Below are positions 2,193 through 20,274 of a DNA stretch of 20,296 nt, piece by piece (position 1 is the first letter of the stretch; each line of letters opens with the position of its first letter). A model generated the notes under the pieces. The model ran no database searches and was not told the origin of the DNA. It saw nothing but the letters and a program-made list of their open reading frames with translations. The stretch is taken from positions 1 through 20,296 of the IMG/VR virus record IMGVR_UViG_3300037070_000351. One strand, 5' to 3'. This DNA comes from a virus. A program made the translations under genes and the position numbers.

Positions 2193-4028
2193 ATGGTGAT
2201 GAGGGTTCAGGCGCTTCGTTCGAGCGTCAAGTTGCAGCGCCCGGCTGCTGGTTCGCGGGAACCCGGAGAGGCGTTCTTCAACTTCGCGGATTTGCAGTTC
2301 GGACTGATCGATGCCGGGAAGAACCCGGTCGATCTCGTCGCCGTACGCTACTTCTCGGCCGCGACCGACTACGTGCTGGGCAACTTCGTCGTCCAAGGGG
2401 GCATTCTCTACCGTGCGAAGGGTGCCGTCCCCGCAGGAGCCTTCAGCGCCGCCCAGTGGGACAGCCTTGCCACTGCGGTCGATCTCTCCGGGAAAGAACC
2501 CACGATTGCCGCCGGAACCACCGCCCAGTACTGGCGTGGAGACAAAAGCTGGCAGACCCACGACAAGGCGAGCGTCGGTCTGGGCAACGTCGACAACACC
2601 TCTGACGCCAACAAGCCCATCTCGACCGCCCAGAACACCATCAACCTCCTCAAGGCCAACATCGACAGCCAGACCCTCACGGGCGTGCCGCGAGCGCCGA
2701 CCGCCGCCGACGGCAACTACACGACCCAGCTTGCCACCACGCAGTTCGTCGGAACCGCCGTCGGCCAGATGGCGGCGACGCTGGCTCCCACCAATTCCCC
2801 GACGTTCACGGGCGACCCGAAAGCGCCGACGGCGGCACCGGGGGACAGCGACACCTCGATTGCCACCACGGCCTTCGTGGCCAACGCCGTCGCGCCTCTC
2901 ACTGGGAAGGCCGACATCGCCAGCCCAGTCTTCACGGGCGACCCGCGAGCGCCGACGCCAGCCACGTCCGACAACGACACCAGCATCGCCACCACGGCCT
3001 ACGTCAAGGCTGTCGTTGCCGCCGTGCCGGGCGCGGTGCCGGGTGGCCTCGCCACGCAAGTGCAGTTCAACGACGGCGGCACCGTGTTCGCCGGAGACGC
3101 CGGGCTGACCTACGACAAGGTCACCGACATCCTGACTGCCGTCGGCGGCTTCTCGACCTCCGGCAACGTCACGGCAGGCAGCTTCTCGACCAGTGGCACC
3201 ATCATCGCCACCGGCAACATCGCTGGTGCCGCCATCACCTCCAGCGGGGGCATCAGTGTCACCAACGGCATCGTCCAGAACCCGTCCGGCGGGGGTTCGC
3301 TCGTCCTCGCGGGTAATGGCGGCAACTGCTACCTGCGCCCCAACGGCAGCGGCAGCGCCACCGGGCAGGCTTACGTCGCCAGCGCCGGGGATTTCTATGT
3401 CCCGGAGGGCATCGTTTACGCGCAAGTCGGTATGTTTGCCGCACTGGCTGGGAGCAGCAACGCTTACCTGTGCGGGACTGGCGGCAGCGTTTGCCTCCGC
3501 CCCAGCAGCACCAGCATCACGTCCAACCAGTTCGTCTATTCGGCGGCGGGAAACATCACATGCACCGGGCCGACCGCCGCCAAGTCGACCGCCGGATCGT
3601 GGGTGGCGATCTCCGACGAGCGCATCAAGACCGTCAAGGCCGACTACACGATGGGCCTCGCCGAGATCGTCGCGTTGCAGCCGAGGGTCTACACCTACAA
3701 GGGCAACGACACCGTCGAAGCCCCCGGCACGATGGACCTCGACCCCGAGGACGACGAGCCGACCCACGCCAGCGCAAAGGCCGCGCCGTACCCCGAAAGC
3801 ACCCACTACCAGATGGCGCTCGACGGCACCGAGATCGTCGGTCTCATAGCTCAAGAGGCCGAGGCGGTGATGCCGGAACTGGTCAACATCACGACCGGCT
3901 TCATCGACGGCGTCGAGCACGACGACGTGCGCAACATCGACATCACCAACCTCACCTACGCCCTGATCAACGCGGTCAAGGAACTGTCTGCGAAGGTAAC
4001 GGCACTGGAGGCGGCAGCAGCCGCGTGA
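2193..4028 (+). CDS. Tail fibre protein 2 with S74 intramolecular chaperone
   Basis: A 611-residue fibre. The N-terminal part includes FFNFADLQFGLIDAGKNPVD and a carbohydrate-module-like DYVLGNFVVQGGILYRAK (about 59-76). The fibre motif VGLGNVDNTSDANKPIS (about 127-143) is followed by three repeats of the type TGxPxAPT...DTSIATTAFV (about 160-275), then a Gly/Ser/Thr-rich probable triple beta-helix shaft (about 310-460). The C-terminus is an S74 peptidase/endosialidase-type chaperone: SDERIK places the catalytic Ser at 474 and Lys at 479, with GLIAQEAEAVMPELV and NLTYALINAVKEL downstream. In this family the chaperone trimerises the shaft and then cleaves itself off, here leaving about 473 residues. 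AGGAAAGGG precedes ATG 2193; ATG 2199 is an alternative start. Probably the main receptor-binding fibre. Confidence 0.88.
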   Translation: MVMRVQALRSSVKLQRPAAGSREPGEAFFNFADLQFGLIDAGKNPVDLVAVRYFSAATDYVLGNFVVQGGILYRAKGAVPAGAFSAAQWDSLATAVDLSGKEPTIAAGTTAQYWRGDKSWQTHDKASVGLGNVDNTSDANKPISTAQNTINLLKANIDSQTLTGVPRAPTAADGNYTTQLATTQFVGTAVGQMAATLAPTNSPTFTGDPKAPTAAPGDSDTSIATTAFVANAVAPLTGKADIASPVFTGDPRAPTPATSDNDTSIATTAYVKAVVAAVPGAVPGGLATQVQFNDGGTVFAGDAGLTYDKVTDILTAVGGFSTSGNVTAGSFSTSGTIIATGNIAGAAITSSGGISVTNGIVQNPSGGGSLVLAGNGGNCYLRPNGSGSATGQAYVASAGDFYVPEGIVYAQVGMFAALAGSSNAYLCGTGGSVCLRPSSTSITSNQFVYSAAGNITCTGPTAAKSTAGSWVAISDERIKTVKADYTMGLAEIVALQPRVYTYKGNDTVEAPGTMDLDPEDDEPTHASAKAAPYPESTHYQMALDGTEIVGLIAQEAEAVMPELVNITTGFIDGVEHDDVRNIDITNLTYALINAVKELSAKVTALEAAAAA

Positions 4029-4042
4029 AGGAGACATCAGAC

Positions 4043-4426
4043 ATGCAGTTCGTGAGCTATCGGAGGCGTGGCGACCTCAAGATTTACGCCCTTGGCGACG
4101 ACGCCAAGAGCTACCACTTCATCAATGCCGAGACCGCCGCCGAGTGGATGAAGACCAACACCACCAACATCCCGACGCTGGCCTCGATCTCGCCCGTCAG
4201 CGCGGCCGCTGGCGCTGCCGACCTCACGGTGACCCTGACCGGAACGAATTTCTCAGCCGCGTGCGAGGTCTTGGTGAATGGCGCTCTCTACGCCAGCACC
4301 TTCGTGTCCCCGACATCGATCACCATCCTCGCCAAGCCCCTGCTGATCCCGCAGAACACCGTCTACAACGTCGCCGTCCGCAAGGGCCTGATCACCACGG
4401 TCTCGAAGCCGTTCACCTTCACATGA
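4043..4426 (+). CDS. Small IPT/TIG-domain protein
   Basis: A 127-residue protein. The start at 4043 follows AAGGAG at 4028-4033; the frame is open further upstream, but that part overlaps the fibre gene. Residues 1-45 (MQFVSYRRRGDLKIYALGDD...) are unassigned. Residues about 46-127 form an immunoglobulin-like IPT/TIG fold: PTLASISPVSAAAG, TVTLTGTNFS, VLVNG, and a C-terminal strand ending KPFTFT. Such domains occur as virion decoration or fibre-associated modules. Its IPT domain is clearly related to that of the protein at 6654-7184. Its stop overlaps the lysozyme start (ATGA), so translation is probably coupled. Likely a minor virion or adhesion protein; the exact role is unknown. Confidence 0.72.
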   Translation: MQFVSYRRRGDLKIYALGDDAKSYHFINAETAAEWMKTNTTNIPTLASISPVSAAAGAADLTVTLTGTNFSAACEVLVNGALYASTFVSPTSITILAKPLLIPQNTVYNVAVRKGLITTVSKPFTFT

Positions 4427-5151
4427 CCCCGCTCGTCATCGACATCTCGCACTACCAGCCGACGCCCAACTGGGGCGAGGTCAGGAAGAGCGGCATCGTC
4501 GGCGTCATCCTCAAATGCACCGAGGGCGAGAGCTACGTCGACGACACTTGGATGGGACGCGCCACCGACGCTCTGGTCGCCGGTCTCGCTGTCTCCACCT
4601 ACCATTTCCTGCGGCCCGGTTCGATGGAAGACCAGATGCGCCACTACATCGACGAGCAGGACAAGGTGATGCCGCTGGGGTCTCGCGTCGTGCTCGACTA
4701 CGAGGACGACCGCGTCAACATCATCGATCTGTGCGCCTGCGTGCAGGCGATCATGGACAAGCGCCCCGACCTCCAGATCACGATCTACAGCGGCCACGTC
4801 ATCAAGGAGAAACTCGGCAACACCCACAACGATCTGCTGGCCAAGAACACGTCTCTCTGGATCGCCCAGTACACCACCGGCACTCCGACATGGCCAACGG
4901 CGACGTGGCCGCAATGGTCGCTGTGGCAGTACACCGACACCGGCACGGTCAAGGGCATCAGCGGACATGTCGACCTCGACGCCTTCAACGGCAGCGCCGA
5001 GGCGTGCGTCAAATGGATGGGTCCGGCTGGAAACGCGCAGCCGGGGCCTGACCCCGATCCCGGTGTCGAGGTCGTCTATGTCGATGTCAATATCGGGTCG
5101 GTGCCGGTCGGGTTTGAGGTCCGCGTTCGCGTCAACGGGGAGATCGTGTGA
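4423..5151 (+). CDS. Glycoside hydrolase family 25 lysozyme (endolysin)
   Basis: A 242-residue muramidase expected to cleave the MurNAc-GlcNAc beta-1,4 bond of peptidoglycan at lysis. GH25 hallmarks are in order: VIDISHYQ at the start (Asp7), KCTEGESYVD (31-40), YHFLRPG (60-66), the catalytic DxE as LDYEDD (Asp92, Glu94), IYSG in mid-domain, WIAQYT, LWQYT, and the terminal GHVDLDAFNG. After about residue 200 comes a Pro/Asp linker (QPGPDPDPG) and a short beta-type tail, VVYVDVNIGSVPVGFEVRVR, possibly a cell-wall or virion-binding add-on. There is no signal peptide, so export needs the holin. The ATG overlaps the preceding stop. It could alternatively be a virion-associated wall hydrolase, but it is grouped with membrane lysis genes. 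Confidence 0.9.
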   Translation: MTPLVIDISHYQPTPNWGEVRKSGIVGVILKCTEGESYVDDTWMGRATDALVAGLAVSTYHFLRPGSMEDQMRHYIDEQDKVMPLGSRVVLDYEDDRVNIIDLCACVQAIMDKRPDLQITIYSGHVIKEKLGNTHNDLLAKNTSLWIAQYTTGTPTWPTATWPQWSLWQYTDTGTVKGISGHVDLDAFNGSAEACVKWMGPAGNAQPGPDPDPGVEVVYVDVNIGSVPVGFEVRVRVNGEIV

Positions 5152-5156
5152 CGTGA

Positions 5157-5540
5157 ATGGCCGAGCTACAGCCCAACGCAGGCTGGCTGGCCGGGGCGAT
5201 CTCGGCGATCAAGGGACTGTCATGGACCAACCTGCTGGTGATCTTCGCGCTGTTGCTGATGCTGATCCCGGCGTATGTCGTCTACCGGGCGTTGAACGAC
5301 GAGCAGTTGCTCGACAGGTTCCTCAGTTCGTACCGGGAAGTCCCGTCGAAAAGCGGTTGTATCGTGCGCGTGGTCGCCGAGCGCGGCGGGCCGGAGCGCT
5401 GGTCGGTCTCGACGGCCTACGCAGCGAGCGGCGCGGATCGCTGGACTGTCGGGGTCGTCCTCGACAGCGCGCCTTCGGAAGAGCAGATCGCCAGCTACTG
5501 CGCCGCGCTGAACCTGATCGTGGACCGCCTGCACCAATGA
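5157..5540 (+). CDS. Single-TM membrane protein, lysis candidate
   Basis: A 127-residue protein with one clear transmembrane segment, LLVIFALLLMLIPAYVVYRA (about 26-45), after a short N-terminal segment, and an 80-residue C-terminal domain containing Cys68 and Cys115. It lies 5 bp after the endolysin gene with only a weak ribosome site, and its stop overlaps the next start (ATGA). Position and topology fit a holin-like, antiholin or inner-membrane spanin role. I recognise no family motif. The C-terminal domain looks folded (RWSVSTAYAASGADRWTVGVVLD) rather than a long coiled coil, which is atypical for an Rz-type spanin. Confidence 0.65.
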   Translation: MAELQPNAGWLAGAISAIKGLSWTNLLVIFALLLMLIPAYVVYRALNDEQLLDRFLSSYREVPSKSGCIVRVVAERGGPERWSVSTAYAASGADRWTVGVVLDSAPSEEQIASYCAALNLIVDRLHQ

Positions 5541-6109
5541 GATCGCATATCGTTTTGATAGGCATTTTGATGTCGACGGCTGCTCACGCCGAGAAACCGG
5601 ATTTTTCGGAAAATCAGTGCCGCGTGCTGCTACAGGTGCGTGCAGATAACGGTAGCTGCGCCCGCACGACGACGCGAAATGTTGGCCATAGTAGAGGTGA
5701 GACTGCAAATGCGGAACCTGCTGGTGCTGCTGTCGGCGCTGCTGGCGGTATTGGTGCTGCTGGCAGCGGCGTTGGGGATGTTTCGTCGTCCGGTGGGCAA
5801 GCAGGACCGGGTGATACAGGGGATGTTGATGCTGGAACCGGAACCCCCGGCGGTGGCGACCCCGGCGATCCCGGCGACCCCGGCGATCCCGGCGATCCCG
5901 GTCGGCCCGGCAGCGGTTCAGGACGCCCCGGCGGCAGGCCACCAATCGACATTCAGAAGCTGAAAGGTCGCCTCGAAGGTCTCGACGGCAAGCGGCTCAA
6001 AGAGTTTTTGCGTGAGCATCCCGCCATCGTTTTCGATCTGCTGAACGACCCCGGCAAGCCGGGTGGTGGTGGTTTCGATCCGCCGAAAGGCGGTCGCAAC
6101 GCCCGATAG
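5537..6109 (+). CDS. Exported protein with collagen-like Gly-Asp-Pro repeats
   Basis: A 190-residue protein whose start overlaps the previous stop (ATGA). The N-terminus is a probable Sec signal peptide, HIVLIGILMSTAAHA (cleavage after about residue 18), with no lipobox cysteine. Cys28 and Cys41 follow, then a low-complexity Ala/Gly stretch (about 58-95), a collagen-like run of GDP triplets (about 107-121) and a well-coded C-terminal helical domain, IDIQKLKGRLEGLDGKRL and EFLREHPAIVFDLLNDPG (about 136-172). From about 5709 to 5830 codon choice is unusual (many T-ending codons), because another gene (5709-5963) is read in a different frame. It is probably periplasmic and may act with its neighbours in lysis; no family recognised. 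Confidence 0.6.
   Translation: MRSHIVLIGILMSTAAHAEKPDFSENQCRVLLQVRADNGSCARTTTRNVGHSRGETANAEPAGAAVGAAGGIGAAGSGVGDVSSSGGQAGPGDTGDVDAGTGTPGGGDPGDPGDPGDPGDPGRPGSGSGRPGGRPPIDIQKLKGRLEGLDGKRLKEFLREHPAIVFDLLNDPGKPGGGGFDPPKGGRNAR
5709..5963 (+). CDS. Nested membrane protein with Pro-rich tail (spanin- or holin-like)
   Basis: An 84-residue frame fully inside the 5537-6109 gene, in the +1 frame. ATG 5709 has GAGGTGA 8 bp upstream, the same motif as before the gene at 373. Residues about 4-24 are a strong transmembrane helix (LLVLLSALLAVLVLLAAALG), followed by basic MFRRPVGKQ and a Pro/Ala-rich tail (EPEPPAVATPAIPATPAIPA). Third codon positions are almost all G or C (ctg, gcg, gtg, ccg), matching the rest of the phage, while the outer frame is poorer over the same bases. 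Nested genes with a membrane anchor and a Pro-rich periplasmic tail recall Rz/Rz1 spanin pairs, but neither product has a lipobox. The frame is open upstream to a GTG at 5640. Confidence 0.55.
   Translation: MRNLLVLLSALLAVLVLLAAALGMFRRPVGKQDRVIQGMLMLEPEPPAVATPAIPATPAIPAIPVGPAAVQDAPAAGHQSTFRS
5855..5899 (+). repeat. Five tandem 9-bp units read in two frames
   Basis: Five consecutive GGCGAYCCC units (5855, 5864, 5873, 5882, 5891; Y is C or T). In the outer gene they encode Gly-Asp-Pro collagen-like triplets; in the nested gene they encode Ala-Thr/Ile-Pro. Being multiples of three, changes in copy number keep both frames open. Confidence 0.8.
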
Positions 6110-6117
6110 GAGGCATC

Positions 6118-6315
6118 ATGATCAACCAACTCGTCTATCTGCTCATCGTTTGCGTCGTCGTGGGGCTGGTCTGGTGGATCGCGGACTGGTTGCCGGTGCC
6201 GGAACCGTTGAACAAGCTGCTCAAGGTCGTGTCGATCATCATCGGTGTGATCGCCGTCATCTATGTTCTGCTGGCGCTCGCTGGTATGGGTGGCGGACTG
6301 CCGAGGCTGCAATGA
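6118..6315 (+). CDS. Small two-TM membrane protein, holin candidate
   Basis: A 65-residue protein with an excellent ribosome site (AGGAGG, 6 bp before ATG). There are two transmembrane helices, LVYLLIVCVVVGLVWWIADW (about 5-24) and VVSIIIGVIAVIYVLLALAG (about 37-56), separated by a short loop, LPVPEPLNKLLK. Length, topology and position next to an endolysin match small two-TM phage holins, and the pattern resembles a short membrane-protein family common in phages and proteobacteria (Thivi_2564-like; from memory). It would form the inner-membrane lesion releasing the lysozyme. The stop overlaps the next start (ATGA). Confidence 0.72.
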   Translation: MINQLVYLLIVCVVVGLVWWIADWLPVPEPLNKLLKVVSIIIGVIAVIYVLLALAGMGGGLPRLQ

Positions 6316-6653: not shown

Positions 6654-7184
6654 GTGGCCAAGGACACCAAGCACAAGGCAGAGGCGAAAAGCATCGAAGA
6701 CGCCGAGCAGGATTTCGCCGACGCCCTGACGGCATTCACAGACACCTACAAGAACGTCCTGCACAAGGACCGCGTCGCACGCGGCCTCCAGCTTCAGGCC
6801 GACATCGTCAAGGCAGATTCCGAGTGGGTCACCTACGAGGGCGGTCCCGTCCCGGAGGAGGAGGCACCGCCGCCGACGCTCGACAGCCTGTCTCCCGCCA
6901 GCGCGGTTGCCGGGGATGCAGCCGACATCGTGCTTTCCTGCATCGGCACTGGCTTCATCGAAGGCGTCTCGACCATCATGTTCAACGGCCTGCCGGAGCC
7001 GACCACCTTTGTCTCCGACACCGAGGTGACGACGGGAGTGAAGCCATCGCTGTTCGTGGTCCCGGCGGTCTGCCCCGTCGAGGTCCACACCTACATGAAT
7101 GTTGCCGGGCCACTCGACTTCGAGTTCACCGAGGCGGTGGCGGCGCGCAGCGGCAAGAAATCGTCTAGGAAGGACGATGACTAA
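6654..7184 (+). CDS. IPT/TIG-domain protein with helical N-terminal module
   Basis: A 176-residue protein starting at GTG 6654, 6 bp after AAGGAGG. The N-terminal half is helical (FADALTAFTDTYKNVL, about 22-37, and ARGLQLQADIVKADSEW, about 43-59) and matches the preceding gene's product. Residues about 77-165 are an IPT/TIG domain: PTLDSLSPASAVAGDAAD, GTGFIEGVSTIMFNG, TTFVSDTEVTTGVKP, ending DFEFTEA. This domain shares the spacing PTLxSxSPxSAxAG, GTxF, NG, TFVS, KP with the 4043-4426 protein. The C-terminus is basic (KKSSRK). A virion decoration or adhesion role is likely by analogy with Ig-like phage proteins; not established. The next gene may start within its last codons (ATG 7177). Confidence 0.7.
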   Translation: MAKDTKHKAEAKSIEDAEQDFADALTAFTDTYKNVLHKDRVARGLQLQADIVKADSEWVTYEGGPVPEEEAPPPTLDSLSPASAVAGDAADIVLSCIGTGFIEGVSTIMFNGLPEPTTFVSDTEVTTGVKPSLFVVPAVCPVEVHTYMNVAGPLDFEFTEAVAARSGKKSSRKDDD

Positions 7185-15505: not shown

Positions 15506-17520
15506 CCTATCAGCTTATAGAAAATTTCATCTCGGGGCAGGACACCCGCAAGTCTCCGCTGACGTCGGCGGCGGGCACCCTTACCCGGCTGATCAATGCC
15601 ATGATCACCCCCGGCGGCGAGATCGCCAAGCGCCGCGCCTTCGTCAATGTCGGCAGCGTCGCTGGCTCCTTCGGCCTCGCTGCGACCGAGTCCTCGCTGT
15701 TCGTGTTCGGCCGCAATGTCGACCCGGTGGTGCCGAACATCGGCGTCCCCGGCGTCAACCTGCGCGCCTGCAAGATACCCAACACCGACACCTCGCTTGA
15801 GCAGACCGACTACGACGTGTTCGACGGCAATGTCTATCTCGCCTGCCGCACCGGGGCGTCGCTGTTCAACTATCCGACCGAGGCCCAGAACCCGCACTAC
15901 TACCTTGGCGTGCGGCCCTCGACGGTGATCTACGACGGCAAGCTCTCGGAGGGGTCCGGCAGGGGCTACTATGTCCGCACCTTCCAGTCGAAGGTCTACG
16001 CGGTCATCAACAAGCTGCTCAACTTCTCGGCCATCGGCAACCCGGTGGTGTGGGACGAGGAGGCGCTGATCGACAAGGTCGTCGTCGTCCTGCTGTCCAA
16101 CACCAACCCTGCCATCTGCACTGTCTCCGCCGCCGAGATCGGCCAGTTCACCGCCGGGCGATTCGTCTACATCGCAGGGGCCACCAAGGCGGGCCTGACC
16201 GGGGCCAACGGCTACCGGCAGATCGGCACCGTCGGGGCCACCACCTTCACGCTGAACGGCGTCAACGGCTCGACGGCGACGTCTCCGGGACAGAACGACA
16301 GCAAGGTCTCCGCCACGCCCGCCATCTCCGTGCAGTCGATCTCCAACACCAACCCGGCGCGCTGCACCATTGAAGCCGGGGCCATCGCCAAGTTCTCCGA
16401 GGGCATGAAGGTCCAGATTTATCTTCCGGCCCCCGGCCCCGGTTGGCCCGCGATGGTCTCCGGCCCGCGCATCGTCACCCAGATCAACGTCGGCACCAAC
16501 AGCTTCGCGCTGTCGGGGATCGACGCCTCCGCGCTGGCTCCGCAGAGTGCCGCAGGCTGGTGTACGCTGACCTCCGACGTCATCCGCACCGGTCGTGGAT
16601 TCATCAACATCTCGACGGTGGATGCCGACAGCGAGAAGCTGACCTCGCTGGAGGTCTACTACGACAAGCTGGCGATCTTCTCGACGCAGGCGACCCAGAT
16701 TTGGGCGGTCGACCCGGACCCCCTCCAGAACGCCTTCGAGCAGTTGCTGCGCGGCGCGGGCACCACCGCGCCGAGATCGCCGCTCCAGTACGGCTCCGGC
16801 GACGTTCTCTATCTCGACCCGTCCGGGATCAGGTCGCTGAAGGCCAAGGACAGTTCAAACAGCGCTGCCGTCTCCGACATCGGCTCTCCAGTCGACCCGG
16901 CCGTCAGGGGCATCCGCCTCGACCCGCTCAAGGGCACGCTCAACTACGCCGACGAGGCGGTCTCGCTGCTGGAGCCGAGCGTCGGCCGGTTCTGGATGAT
17001 CTTCCCGAGGGAGATTCTCTGTCTCTCGTACTTCCCCGGACCCAAGATCACGGCGTGGTCGACGCTGACGCTGCCAGAGCTTGCCGGAGCCGAGATCGAT
17101 CACGCGGTTACTTGTGGTGGGAAAATCTTCCTGCGCGACAGCGCCGACAACCTCTGGGTCTACGGAGGCACCGACGGCAAGGCCTACAACAATCCCGGTG
17201 TCGAGGTGCGGCTGCCCTACCACGACTCGAAGAAGCCCGGCCACAAGAAGGAGTTCCAAGCCTTCGACGCCACGGTCAACAGCGCCGATCCGCCGCTGGT
17301 CAATCCGGGAACGTGGCGGGTCGCTGTCTCCTACGACTACAACAACCCGGATGCCGAGGAGACCATCGCCAACATCGCGGTGCCGACATGGAACTTCGGC
17401 AGCCACGAGCTTCAGGGCTACGACAGCCACTTCTCGTTGCGCTTCTACAACAACGACAATCTTGAGGCGACGATCTCCAACGCTGCCGTCCACTACGCGA
17501 TTGCGGACGAAGAGGCATGA
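15502..17520 (+). CDS. Tail tube / nozzle protein with two inserted beta modules
   Basis: A 672-residue protein starting at GTG 15502, overlapping the adaptor stop. Position and size match podoviral tail tubular B/nozzle proteins: MTYQLIENFISGQDTRKSPL at the N-terminus, ITPGGEIAKRRAF (about 36-48), long beta-propeller-like sequence with LEVYYDKLAIFSTQATQIWA (about 384-403), and GSGDVLYLDPSGIRSL (about 433-448). Two related inserts begin at SNTNPAICTVSAAEIGQF (about 198) and SNTNPARCTIEAGAIAKF (about 280), each ending in a TFTLNGV/SFALSGI strand. They look like the FCCH-type beta modules (named after ubiquitin E1) seen in other phage tail proteins and may decorate the nozzle. It forms the DNA exit channel and binds fibres. 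Confidence 0.82.
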   Translation: MTYQLIENFISGQDTRKSPLTSAAGTLTRLINAMITPGGEIAKRRAFVNVGSVAGSFGLAATESSLFVFGRNVDPVVPNIGVPGVNLRACKIPNTDTSLEQTDYDVFDGNVYLACRTGASLFNYPTEAQNPHYYLGVRPSTVIYDGKLSEGSGRGYYVRTFQSKVYAVINKLLNFSAIGNPVVWDEEALIDKVVVVLLSNTNPAICTVSAAEIGQFTAGRFVYIAGATKAGLTGANGYRQIGTVGATTFTLNGVNGSTATSPGQNDSKVSATPAISVQSISNTNPARCTIEAGAIAKFSEGMKVQIYLPAPGPGWPAMVSGPRIVTQINVGTNSFALSGIDASALAPQSAAGWCTLTSDVIRTGRGFINISTVDADSEKLTSLEVYYDKLAIFSTQATQIWAVDPDPLQNAFEQLLRGAGTTAPRSPLQYGSGDVLYLDPSGIRSLKAKDSSNSAAVSDIGSPVDPAVRGIRLDPLKGTLNYADEAVSLLEPSVGRFWMIFPREILCLSYFPGPKITAWSTLTLPELAGAEIDHAVTCGGKIFLRDSADNLWVYGGTDGKAYNNPGVEVRLPYHDSKKPGHKKEFQAFDATVNSADPPLVNPGTWRVAVSYDYNNPDAEETIANIAVPTWNFGSHELQGYDSHFSLRFYNNDNLEATISNAAVHYAIADEEA

Positions 17521-17981
17521 GACGGATCGACGACCAGCCCGACCTCGACGATCTCGCCTCCATCGGCAGGCACCTGTGCGAGAGCGACAAGATCGAACTG
17601 GGACTGACCCGCGATCCCGACAACTACGTGTCTCTGGCGCTCGACGCTTTCGAGAGCGATTTCAAGTACGTGGTCCTCGACATGGACGTGCCGGTGATGG
17701 CGTTCGGGGCAAAACTCCTCGGCCCGATAGCTCTCGTGTGGGGTTTCAAGACCGACGAGGGACGGCCAGCCGTCGGGATGGTGACGAAATTCATCAAGCG
17801 GACTATGATCCCCGAACTCAAGAGCGAGGGGGTGAGCCGGGCCGTCTGCCTCGTGCATCCGCTCAATCAGGCATCGCAGAACTGGCTTCGCCACCTTGGC
17901 TTCACGCCACGGGCCACATCTCGGGAGTTTGGCACCCGGCATGAGGAGGTTCTCCTCTTCCAGCGCGACGATCTCCAATGA
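17517..17981 (+). CDS. GNAT-like protein, T7 gp13 (internal virion protein A) type
   Basis: A 154-residue protein whose ATG overlaps the nozzle stop (ATGA). It has a GNAT-like layout: an N-terminal helix-rich part, a central strand pair PIALVWGFKTDEGRPAVGMV (about 69-88), helix FIKRTMIPELKSEGVSRAVC, and the C-terminal NQASQNWLRHLGF typical of acetyltransferase-fold motif B. The usual acetyl-CoA pyrophosphate loop (R/QxxGxG/A) is not evident, so catalysis is doubtful. T7 gp13 has this fold and lies at the same place (after the tail tube genes) and affects virion assembly. The family match is from recall, not a search. Confidence 0.7.
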   Translation: MRRIDDQPDLDDLASIGRHLCESDKIELGLTRDPDNYVSLALDAFESDFKYVVLDMDVPVMAFGAKLLGPIALVWGFKTDEGRPAVGMVTKFIKRTMIPELKSEGVSRAVCLVHPLNQASQNWLRHLGFTPRATSREFGTRHEEVLLFQRDDLQ

Positions 17982-18499
17982 ATCAGGCCCTCGACCAGAA
18001 GCTGCTCGCGCAGGCGGTCGACGCCTACTCGTTCCGGGGCGCGAACTCCTTGGATGTCTCCCAGATCGTCAACCTCTATGGCGAGTTCTTCGCCGAGAGT
18101 GACTGGCCGAACCGCAACCTCGTCTACGACCCGCCGCGCATGTGGGCGTGGGTCTTCAGGGGCATCACCAGCGGCAACGTCCCGCACCTCTTGGCGTTCG
18201 AGAAGACCAAGGGTGAGTTGGTCGGCTCGATCTGCTACACGCTCGACCACAATTTCACGACCAAGCCCTTCGCTCATCTGGACAAATTCTTCGTTCGCCG
18301 GAAATGGCGCAGGTCTCCTGTCGGCCGGGTGCTGCTGACGCTGTGCCTTGAGATCGCCCGCGCCGACGGTGCCGCTTGTTTTAACGCCAACGCGCTCTCC
18401 GGGATGAAGGAGATCGCCAGCCTCAAGAACCTCCTGATCCACATGGGCTTCCGGGAGACCAACGGAATCGCGATGACAAGGAACTTCGACGATGTGTGA
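17978..18499 (+). CDS. Second GNAT-fold acetyltransferase-like protein
   Basis: A 173-residue protein with ATGA overlap to the gp13-like gene. GNAT features: strand LVGSICYTLDHN (about 86-97), then AHLDKFFVRRKWRRSPVGRVLLTLCLE (split over about 98-125), where RRSPVGR occupies the place of the acetyl-CoA-binding R/QxxGxG/A loop, and the C-terminal NLLIHMGFRETNGIAMTRNF (about 150-169). The loop is closer to a functional one than in the neighbour but is not canonical. Role unknown: a virion component, or modification of a phage or host protein. Its end overlaps the next gene by 8 bp. Confidence 0.65.
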   Translation: MNQALDQKLLAQAVDAYSFRGANSLDVSQIVNLYGEFFAESDWPNRNLVYDPPRMWAWVFRGITSGNVPHLLAFEKTKGELVGSICYTLDHNFTTKPFAHLDKFFVRRKWRRSPVGRVLLTLCLEIARADGAACFNANALSGMKEIASLKNLLIHMGFRETNGIAMTRNFDDV

Positions 18500-19445
18500 T
18501 CTGTTCGGCGGTTCGAGCGACGACTCCTCGCGGCAGATGATCGACATGCAGAAGGAGGAGGCGGCGGCTGCCCGCGCCAAGGAAGTGGCACGGCAGGCGC
18601 GGCTCACGTCGGGTCTCGCCCGTATCAAGGGGGCCTTCCACGGCACCCCCGAGATGGTCAAGAGAACCTTCAAGGCTGGTGCTTCCGGGATGCCGACTGG
18701 CTTCAAGCTCGTCGACCTTCCCGCTGTCTCCGCCATCGCGGGCCGTCCGGCGGGCACCAGAACGATACCGGGCCAGATGGTTCCGACCACCGGACACGGC
18801 ACCGGCAACATGCAGGAGGTCGGGGGACGGACGGTCAACACCCCGGCGGTGACTGCCGTTCCCGGACGCGCTGCCGGGAAGTACGTGCAAGGCCCGGACG
18901 GCAAGGTCTACAAGATCGGCGAGAACGTCACCGCCGACGTCGCCACCGGCAAGCAGGTGGGTGGAATCCAGCCGAGCTTCTTCAACGACTTCAAGCAGGG
19001 CATCCTCGACTACTACACGCCGCAGGTGGCGGAGAAGTACGGCGAGGCCAAGGATGAGACGACCTTCCGGCTGGCGCGCGCGGGCACACTCCGTTCGAGC
19101 GCCGCCAACGACGCGGCTGCCGACCTGTTCAAGCAGAACCTGATCAATGTCGGCGACGTCCGCAACAAGGCCGATACGGCTGCTGCCGATCTCAGGTCCC
19201 GGACGGCAGCGGAAGAGGCCAAGGCTGTCTCCCAGCTTTACGCGACAGAGAACCCGGACGTCGCGGCCAACCAAGCGACGGCCGCGATCCGCAACATCAC
19301 GTCGGAGGACCCGCCGACCACGGCGCTGGGCGACATCTTCAACGTCGCGGCCATCGGTGGCGCGAAGTACATGCAGGGTGCCGACAACGCGGCTTTTGCG
19401 AAACGCGTCGGGGCACTGCCGAAGCCACAGACCCGAACCGTCTAG
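18492..19445 (+). CDS. Internal virion / ejection protein 1 (predicted)
   Basis: A 317-residue protein starting MCDLFGG, 8 bp inside the previous gene, with a weak ribosome site. The N-terminal helix is charged (QMIDMQKEEAAAARAKEVAR, about 15-34), the middle is Gly/Thr/Pro-rich (about 55-150), and the C-terminal half is helical: FFNDFKQGILDYYTPQVAEK (about 162-181), TFRLARAGTLRSSAANDAAA (about 191-210), VSQLYATENPDVAANQATAA. There is no TM or signal peptide. Location after the tail genes matches the internal virion proteins that enter the cell with the DNA in T7-like phages. The next gene also starts MCD, a start seen in some gp14-like proteins. No enzyme motif seen. Confidence 0.62.
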   Translation: MCDLFGGSSDDSSRQMIDMQKEEAAAARAKEVARQARLTSGLARIKGAFHGTPEMVKRTFKAGASGMPTGFKLVDLPAVSAIAGRPAGTRTIPGQMVPTTGHGTGNMQEVGGRTVNTPAVTAVPGRAAGKYVQGPDGKVYKIGENVTADVATGKQVGGIQPSFFNDFKQGILDYYTPQVAEKYGEAKDETTFRLARAGTLRSSAANDAAADLFKQNLINVGDVRNKADTAAADLRSRTAAEEAKAVSQLYATENPDVAANQATAAIRNITSEDPPTTALGDIFNVAAIGGAKYMQGADNAAFAKRVGALPKPQTRTV

Positions 19446-19455
19446 GAGACACACC

Positions 19456-20274
19456 ATGTGCGATCCTGTCTCCCTGTCGATTGCCAGCACCGTCGTCGGG
19501 GCCGTCGGCACCATCGGCGGTGGCATGGCCCAGCGTTCGGCTGCGAAGAAACAGCAGGAAGAGGTCAACGTCTGGCAGCAGCAGCAGAAGAAGGACCGCG
19601 CCGCCGAGCAGGTCAGGCAGGAGGAGTTGCGCAAGGAGGCTGACGCCGCCCGCCTCAAGGGTGTGCAGGACCTCTCCGGTGACGAGCAGGTCAAGCGTCA
19701 GAAGGAAGAGGAGGCGCGTCTCGCCTCCTACCTGACGGGGCAGGGCGACGCCAACGCCACCCCCGAAGCCGACATCGGTCCCCAAGCGACAGCCGACACC
19801 GCGATGTTCTCCGGCCAGCAGGGTGGAGACGCGGTCTCCAATAGCGACCTCGCCAAGAAGATCAGCGAGGCGAGTTCCAGTGCGCAACAACGCATCAAGG
19901 CGCTCGCCAAGGTCTCCTCCTACGGGGAGAGCTTCGGTGGTCTGGGCACCGAGAACCCGCTGCTCCAGCAGGAGGCTGGCACCGGCATCGACATGGCCAA
20001 CGAGATGCGGCGCGGGTCTCTCGGCGCGTTCGGTGTCGAGAAGGCCGTCGATCCCGTCCAAGTGTCGTTCACGCCGTCGCCGTTGGCCGACATCTTCTCG
20101 ACGGCGCTGTCTCTCGGCGCGCAGGGAATGGGCGGCAAGTTCGGCAGTCCGTTCGCCGGTTCCGATTCCACCTCGACGCTGTTCCCGGCCGCGCCCAAGG
20201 CGTCGACCTTCATCGGACCTGCCGTGCCCCTGCCGAAGAAGTACGCATCGCCAAGCAGCGCCAACATCTTCTAG
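19456..20274 (+). CDS. Internal virion / ejection protein 2, gp14-like (predicted)
   Basis: A 272-residue protein with AGGAGAC 6 bp before ATG. The N-terminus MCDPVSLSIASTVVGAVGTIGG is hydrophobic enough to insert in a membrane (about 5-22), followed by a charged coiled coil, RSAAKKQQEEVNVWQQQQKK and EQVRQEELRKEADAARL (about 27-75), a second Arg/Lys/Glu segment to about 95, then a polar, Gly/Ser-rich, beta-poor remainder. An N-terminal apolar helix plus coiled coil is the layout of T7 gp14-type proteins, which form the outer-membrane part of the ejection conduit. Family assignment is by layout and position only. Confidence 0.66.
   Translation: MCDPVSLSIASTVVGAVGTIGGGMAQRSAAKKQQEEVNVWQQQQKKDRAAEQVRQEELRKEADAARLKGVQDLSGDEQVKRQKEEEARLASYLTGQGDANATPEADIGPQATADTAMFSGQQGGDAVSNSDLAKKISEASSSAQQRIKALAKVSSYGESFGGLGTENPLLQQEAGTGIDMANEMRRGSLGAFGVEKAVDPVQVSFTPSPLADIFSTALSLGAQGMGGKFGSPFAGSDSTSTLFPAAPKASTFIGPAVPLPKKYASPSSANIF

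Follow-up and report, generated by a model that had tools for sequence, protein, structure and literature searches.

In the lysis region of a tailed phage, one run of bases very probably encodes two proteins: an exported protein, B, and, nested wholly within its gene in the +1 frame, a short peptide, X, with a single predicted transmembrane (TM) segment. A preliminary description of the window (the whole 20,296-nucleotide stretch analysed, IMG/VR record IMGVR_UViG_3300037070_000351) had proposed dual-frame coding in the lysis cassette, and comparative tests by permutation, scanning and retention support it. The open reading frame of X, a +1 hydrophobic signature beyond chance, its recurrence in multiple lineages and its retention under divergence are all supported by comparison of sequences; we further infer translation of X, its membrane insertion and a holin or antiholin role, and spanin function of genes A and B. 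For the reading as a whole, in which A and B form a spanin-like pair and X, overprinted on the linker of B, is a separately initiated single-span peptide that times lysis or permeabilises the membrane, we estimate a probability of about 0.62.

The window carries tailed-phage genes for an SU10-type adaptor, large terminase, portal and capsid (Pfam and PHROG matches). Near and distant searches of phage DNA with the window sequence gave no match, and the major capsid protein alone matched GenBank phages (Microcystis phage Mae-Yong1326-1 and Rhizobium phage RHph_N65). In the lysis region, a gene for a GH25 endolysin is followed by genes A, B and C (Table 1). Gene C, which matches no named family in Pfam or PHROGs (weak, unknown matches only), is probably the main holin. 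Related contigs are labelled L002 to L105; in several of them a lysozyme gene of another type (GH19-like, by eye) lies near A and B. Two genes with similar IPT/TIG-like repeats (PTLxSxSPxxAxAGxAD...; window about 4036-4426 and 6654-7184) flank the lysis genes and are kept in relatives. Elsewhere in the window, two overlapping genes (17517-17981 and 17978-18499), acetyltransferase-type by eye, lie between structural genes. Two otherwise identical contigs show clusters of substitutions, L002 in an S74-type tail gene (window 2702-2781) and L003 near the right end (19199-20127), which may reflect local recombination or assembly mixing.

Table 1. Lysis-region features, in window coordinates
Feature	Coordinates	Strand	Basis
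GH25 endolysin, ATG 4423	4423..5151	+	Pfam Glyco_hydro_25 E 4e-30, PHROG endolysin E 2e-38, both on 4426-5148
Gene A: N-terminal TM and ~80-aa periplasmic alpha/beta domain with two invariant Cys; i-spanin-like partner	5157..5540	+	Homologues, alignments, AF2
Gene B (outer frame), ATG 5537 to stop 6109, 190 aa: signal peptide, QCRVL...C, low-complexity Gly/Ala/GDP tail, C-terminal domain	5537..6109	+	Sequence, alignment
B signal peptide, predicted (MRSHIVLIGILMSTAAHA), without lipobox	5537..5590	+	By eye
B two-Cys motif (QCRVL-x9-C)	5615..5659	+	Alignment of 16 B sequences
X Shine-Dalgarno GAGGTGA, 8 nt upstream of X ATG	5694..5700	+	Duplex energy, synonymous resampling
Candidate nested gene X, ATG 5709 to stop 5963, +1 frame of B, 84 aa, single-TM peptide	5709..5963	+	ORF, permutation, scan
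X TM segment (LLVLLSALLAVLVLLAAALGMF), from a run of T-ending codons in B	5718..5783	+	Hydropathy, permutation
B C-terminal domain (PPIDIQKLKGRLEG...)	5945..6106	+	Partly common to L055 and relatives
Gene C: 65-aa 2-TM membrane protein, holin-like by position	6118..6315	+	SD -10.2 kcal/mol; conserved in relatives

Homologues of A occur in ~45 IMG/VR contigs at 38-63% identity, whereas protein searches of GenBank phages and GTDB bacterial genomes returned no match and no Pfam or PHROG family was hit. The AF2 model (pLDDT 79, pTM 0.51) has a TM helix at residues 23-47 followed by the alpha/beta domain, and a structure search with it found no PDB match. Sequence and model together predict the topology of an i-spanin, a single N-terminal TM segment with a periplasmic domain. 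The start codon of B overlaps the stop codon of A. As the preliminary description had it, the outer product appears to be exported and has no lipobox in the window: the signal peptide, judged by eye, ends in ...AHA before an E, with no Cys at that end. The lipobox expected of an o-spanin is thus lacking from B of the window, while LAGC or LTGC ends the signal in homologues from L011/L062, L047, L052, L054 and others. Among 16 aligned B sequences, C28, L31 and C41 are invariant. Recognised by its exported N-terminus and QCRVL...C, B then follows A at nearly every A locus inspected for it. A protein search with B gave no match in GenBank phages, nor was there one in Pfam or PHROGs, and a single-sequence scan with its N-terminus recovered known loci only.

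B of relatives takes one of two forms: a single gene like that of the window, or two genes, a short B1 that overlaps the end of A and a long B2, the latter usually a lipoprotein (LAGC, LTGC or similar) with PPD, GPP or Gly-rich tails. Tandem duplication of B is seen in many relatives (L011:2311-2912, L047:3368-4032, L051:3215-4118, L054, L060, L082-L084 and L092); B1, without lipobox, shares bases with the 3' end of A but is read in a different frame, and both B1 and B2 carry QCRVL...C. Between B1 and B2, L050 and L053 have ~540 more bases than L051 (L050:3447-4661 versus L051:3447-4118). In L051 and L052, and in L062 at about 3891-4037, the end of B2 is also where a further short TM gene begins, encoding MPGPDxGFWRGVFYATAFSTAIWFVLWLIFR or MNTEPRGFEPLPIPGVSREFLRGVFVGALIMIPVWTGLFLLFEWVVT.

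The two genes resemble a two-component spanin, since B comes after A and many relatives encode it as a lipoprotein. Where the preliminary description had paired the outer with the inner frame, the likely pair is A with B, given the TM protein encoded upstream and the lipobox of B in relatives; its function is here assigned from sequence. Gene order, topology, overlap, the lipobox of relatives and Cys content all match the two-component pattern (PMC6139136), and A and B are adjacent within the lysis cassette, with the endolysin gene upstream in the window. As in lambda Rz/Rz1 and other two-component spanins (PMC6139136), an inner-membrane TM protein is followed by an overlapping exported protein beside the endolysin, B of relatives combines a lipobox with Pro- or Gly-rich stretches and Cys, and the cassette includes embedded +1 coding. 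Unlike these spanins (PMC6139136), A and B show no sequence or fold relation that we could find to them; A is predicted to form an alpha/beta domain rather than coiled coils, and B of the window has no lipobox. The embedding also differs: in Rz/Rz1 the o-spanin is embedded in the i-spanin, whereas here a third, membrane-spanning peptide would be embedded in the o-spanin-like B.

The 84-codon frame that the preliminary description had singled out, nested in the outer gene with a ribosome site, a TM segment and a Pro-rich tail, was borne out by the ORF list, Shine-Dalgarno (SD) energy and hydropathy. As in overprinted genes, the second frame is open and has its own start and ribosome site. The SD duplex energy of X (-10.1 kcal/mol) compares with -10.2 for gene C and -8.3 for A, and reached P 0.046 on synonymous resampling of the upstream codons. 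The TM-like stretch spans ~22 residues, with a 19-residue mean hydropathy of 3.09, and is followed by a Pro/Ala-rich tail. X matches no Pfam or PHROG family and no known holin family; its TM span and its location in the lysis cassette are those of a holin or antiholin. The suggestion that X is the more gene-like frame by its G/C-ending codons was set aside as partly an artefact: GC3 is 0.83 in X, against T3 of 0.61 and GC3 of 0.35 in B across the TM part, but the high value in X partly reflects G at the first codon position of B, which weakens the codon argument.

Our initial expectation was that X is a mere shadow ORF of a Gly-rich sequence, and this was largely rejected by permutation and by controls with other genes and other Gly-rich tracts. 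We regard it as unlikely that the composition of the Gly/Ala/Ser/Pro-rich tail, with SD-like GGAGG arising from Gly codons, accounts for X and that B is the sole product. Given the Gly/Ala/Pro/Asp tail of B, its +1 frame is indeed expected to be open (P ~0.5, synonymous permutation), Gly codons yield SD-like and GTG-like words (median null SD ~-6), and the sequence and start position of X vary between lineages, some relatives having none. The hydrophobicity of that frame, however, goes beyond chance given the first frame. In B of the window, the best 19-residue +1 hydropathy is 3.09, against a mean of 1.8-1.9 when the gene's own codons are permuted (P 0.0015-0.0025); with genome codon usage the best value falls to 0.6, and the observed level was reached in 0 of 2000 trials. 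By synonymous permutation, a +1 hydrophobic stretch is likewise significant (P <= 0.012 in the window, L046, L047, L048, L050-L052, L063, L085, L089 and L105; P < 0.0005 in L058). No such excess was found in L028, L069, L073, L101, L084, the L055 group or Pro-rich tails; the B tails of the first five of these are Gly-rich, which argues against composition as the source of the hydrophobic run.

Nested ORFs were also sought by a scan for ATG or GTG starts in another frame with an SD energy <= -6 and an 18-residue span of hydropathy >= 2.6 within 34 residues. With these thresholds, which were set after the first hits and whose SD and TM criteria are those used for embedded lysis genes in leviviruses (PMC7693330), a nested SD-start-TM ORF was present in 10 of 30 distinct B genes, all in the +1 frame, unrelated in sequence and from about seven lineages by our own count. 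The same scan matched 3 of 390 other long ORFs of the same contigs (495 kb), namely two gene C homologues and one apparent small gene in L021, each in the shadow of a longer ORF. Synonymously permuted B sets gave a mean of 0.26 matches and a maximum of 2 in 200 rounds, and the contrast between B and controls was unchanged at looser and stricter thresholds. The hydropathy attained by 11 of 28 B genes was reached in none of ~55 Gly-rich stretches in other genes of the same contigs (Fisher P 1e-6).

The hydrophobic +1 run is caused by a local series of ~20 T-ending codons spread over many amino acids, a feature absent from comparable Gly-rich tracts; typically 12-16 of 19 codons in the run end in T, against a fraction of 0.1-0.3 in other parts of the gene. 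A T that ends a codon of B occupies the second position of the +1 codon, which then specifies V, L, I, M or F. It is quite unlikely that the run has a non-coding cause, such as decoding speed in the linker, mRNA structure, or local mutation or repeat expansion, with the +1 TM segment as by-product. The runs do consist of simple GGT, GCT, CCT and TCT codons, and B of the window is codon-atypical outside X too; yet T ends codons for Gly, Ala, Ser, Pro, Thr, Val, Asp and Leu, with no single repeated triplet, the run is about as long as one TM span and is absent from comparable tails, and start and stop features adjoin it.

A tree of A places the window, at moderate support, together with L046, L047 and L048/L058, all of which have X, and with L028/L069, which do not; overall, the tree requires at least several gains or losses of X. 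The preliminary description had pointed to loss of a frame in close relatives as the observation that would count against it: the frame is kept in L046, L047, L048 and L058, but L028/L069, in the same A clade, have no +1 TM segment, and X is therefore dispensable or replaceable. Copies of X from different lineages have hydrophobicity in common rather than residues, their tails vary, and in L047 and L050-L052 the peptide has only 26-29 residues. With hydrophobicity alone in common, copies of X from different lineages need not be homologous; loss with re-creation and fast drift under a constraint on hydrophobicity alone both fit the pattern.

Selection on the second frame, as expected of an overprinted gene, was detected in three pairs of relatives and not in the window itself, where X offers no informative substitutions: its sole close copies are identical over X, and the near-identical L002 differs in the lysis region by just one extra GGT at 6061, in the GGT run of B outside X. 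In L048/L058, identity of the outer protein is 0.58 in the X part and 0.84 in the rest of B, and in L063/L105 it is 0.60 and 0.75; in both pairs third bases change less in the X part. Third-base identity in the X part exceeds that in the remainder of B (CMH P 0.001-0.004), a test made partly circular by the choice of pairs after a TM segment had been seen in both members. The +1 hydrophobicity of the three pairs, so chosen, is kept beyond what is left after equally many changes in neutral simulations (P <= 0.001 for L048/L058 and L063/L105, ~0.01 for L051/L052), and such retention is at odds with a compositional shadow. The faster divergence of outer residues in the X part would also be expected if X alone were functional over the shared bases and the tail of B were passive read-through there. 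That is highly improbable: the B frame is open through and past X in all B genes read, it leads to a related C-terminal domain both in the window and in the L055 group, and a linker may simply tolerate change.

Start sites were compared as well. SD energies beside the TM segment (kcal/mol) are -10.1 for the window ATG, -10.3 for the L047 GTG, -9.5 for the L050-L052 GTG, -7.4 for the L089 GTG and -6.0 for the L105 ATG, with a combined P of 0.006 against resampled upstream codons; by the same resampling L048 has no good SD site there (P 0.99). By itself, this evidence for dedicated starts is moderate. Across L050, L051 and L052, GGAGGCGCCA-GTG, comprising SD and start, is unchanged and a +1 stop directly follows the TM segment; this TAG survives an outer change from Leu CTA to Val GTA, both codons being rare in the window's genes. 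Conservation of start context and stop again speaks against a mere shadow. A unimolecular spanin joins an N-terminal lipobox and a C-terminal TM segment in one protein; here the features lie in different frames and a frameshift would be required. Programmed frameshifting from B, which beside normal B would yield a product that is secreted or lipid-anchored and carries a C-terminal TM segment, is highly improbable. B of L047 and L050-L052 does have a lipoprotein signal, with the +1 stop right behind the TM segment as in T1 gp11-type u-spanins (PMC6139136), but an unsystematic look noticed no slippery site, SD and start lie just upstream of the TM segment in most TM-positive copies, and several +1 frames extend far past it.

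We return to X as a separately initiated peptide. A would reside in the inner membrane, and B would be secreted, and lipid-anchored in many relatives, with its low-complexity tail as a flexible linker. This tail tolerates Gly, Ala, Ser, Pro, Thr or Val at little cost, so a second message can be carried cheaply: T at the third base of B would turn the +1 codons into NTN (V/L/I/M/F) and these into a TM helix. Translated from its own SD and ATG or GTG on the mRNA of B, X would become a single-span inner-membrane peptide and may serve lysis timing or inner-membrane permeabilisation in the manner of a holin or antiholin, tied by position to spanin synthesis. This specific role as a lysis regulator is our best guess from the location and size of X, offered tentatively and at somewhat less than even odds; gene C, 2-TM and holin-like, is already present, and a second holin is not required.

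Embedded lysis genes are already known, including Rz1 in Rz, E in D and the levivirus sgl genes. Lysis gene E of phiX174, a phage without endolysin, is nested in gene D in the +1 frame, and its product inhibits MraY. X likewise has an N-terminal TM segment and a non-TM C-terminal tail and is wholly nested in the +1 frame, a likeness of architecture. Single-TM holins and antiholins are short single-span membrane proteins of lysis cassettes; X differs in matching no family, in shrinking to 26-29 residues in some relatives and in coexisting with the 2-TM gene C. In leviviruses, the sgl genes lie in the +1 frame of rep, each a small ORF with an SD and a single TM segment; they occupy poorly conserved parts and are quickly gained and lost (PMC7693330). 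X resembles them as an SD-equipped single-TM ORF in the +1 frame of a poorly conserved part of its host gene (PMC7693330). The settings are unlike: leviviruses are ssRNA phages with one lysis gene (PMC7693330), whereas here a tailed DNA phage has an endolysin and a likely holin, and X sits in the low-complexity linker of a lysis gene. The open-licence literature searched gave no example of an o-spanin-like gene that harbours a third membrane peptide, recurrent within a phage group.

We put at even odds the proposal that these peptides are an undescribed kind of lysis gene, in which the low-complexity linkers of o-spanin-like genes have repeatedly gained an overprinted single-TM peptide in their +1 frame, such that one stretch of DNA would specify both a periplasmic linker and an inner-membrane regulator. 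A and B themselves constitute a candidate two-component spanin family without a family match in the libraries searched. If X is translated, lysis cassettes of tailed phages would repeatedly contain a gene within a gene, of a type that probably escapes gene callers because it is short, often starts at GTG and is enclosed by another gene. X would also illustrate a simple rule for the birth of membrane genes, T-ending codons in a Gly/Ala/Ser/Pro linker, and these phages would form a set in which overprinting can be followed as it is kept, moved or lost.
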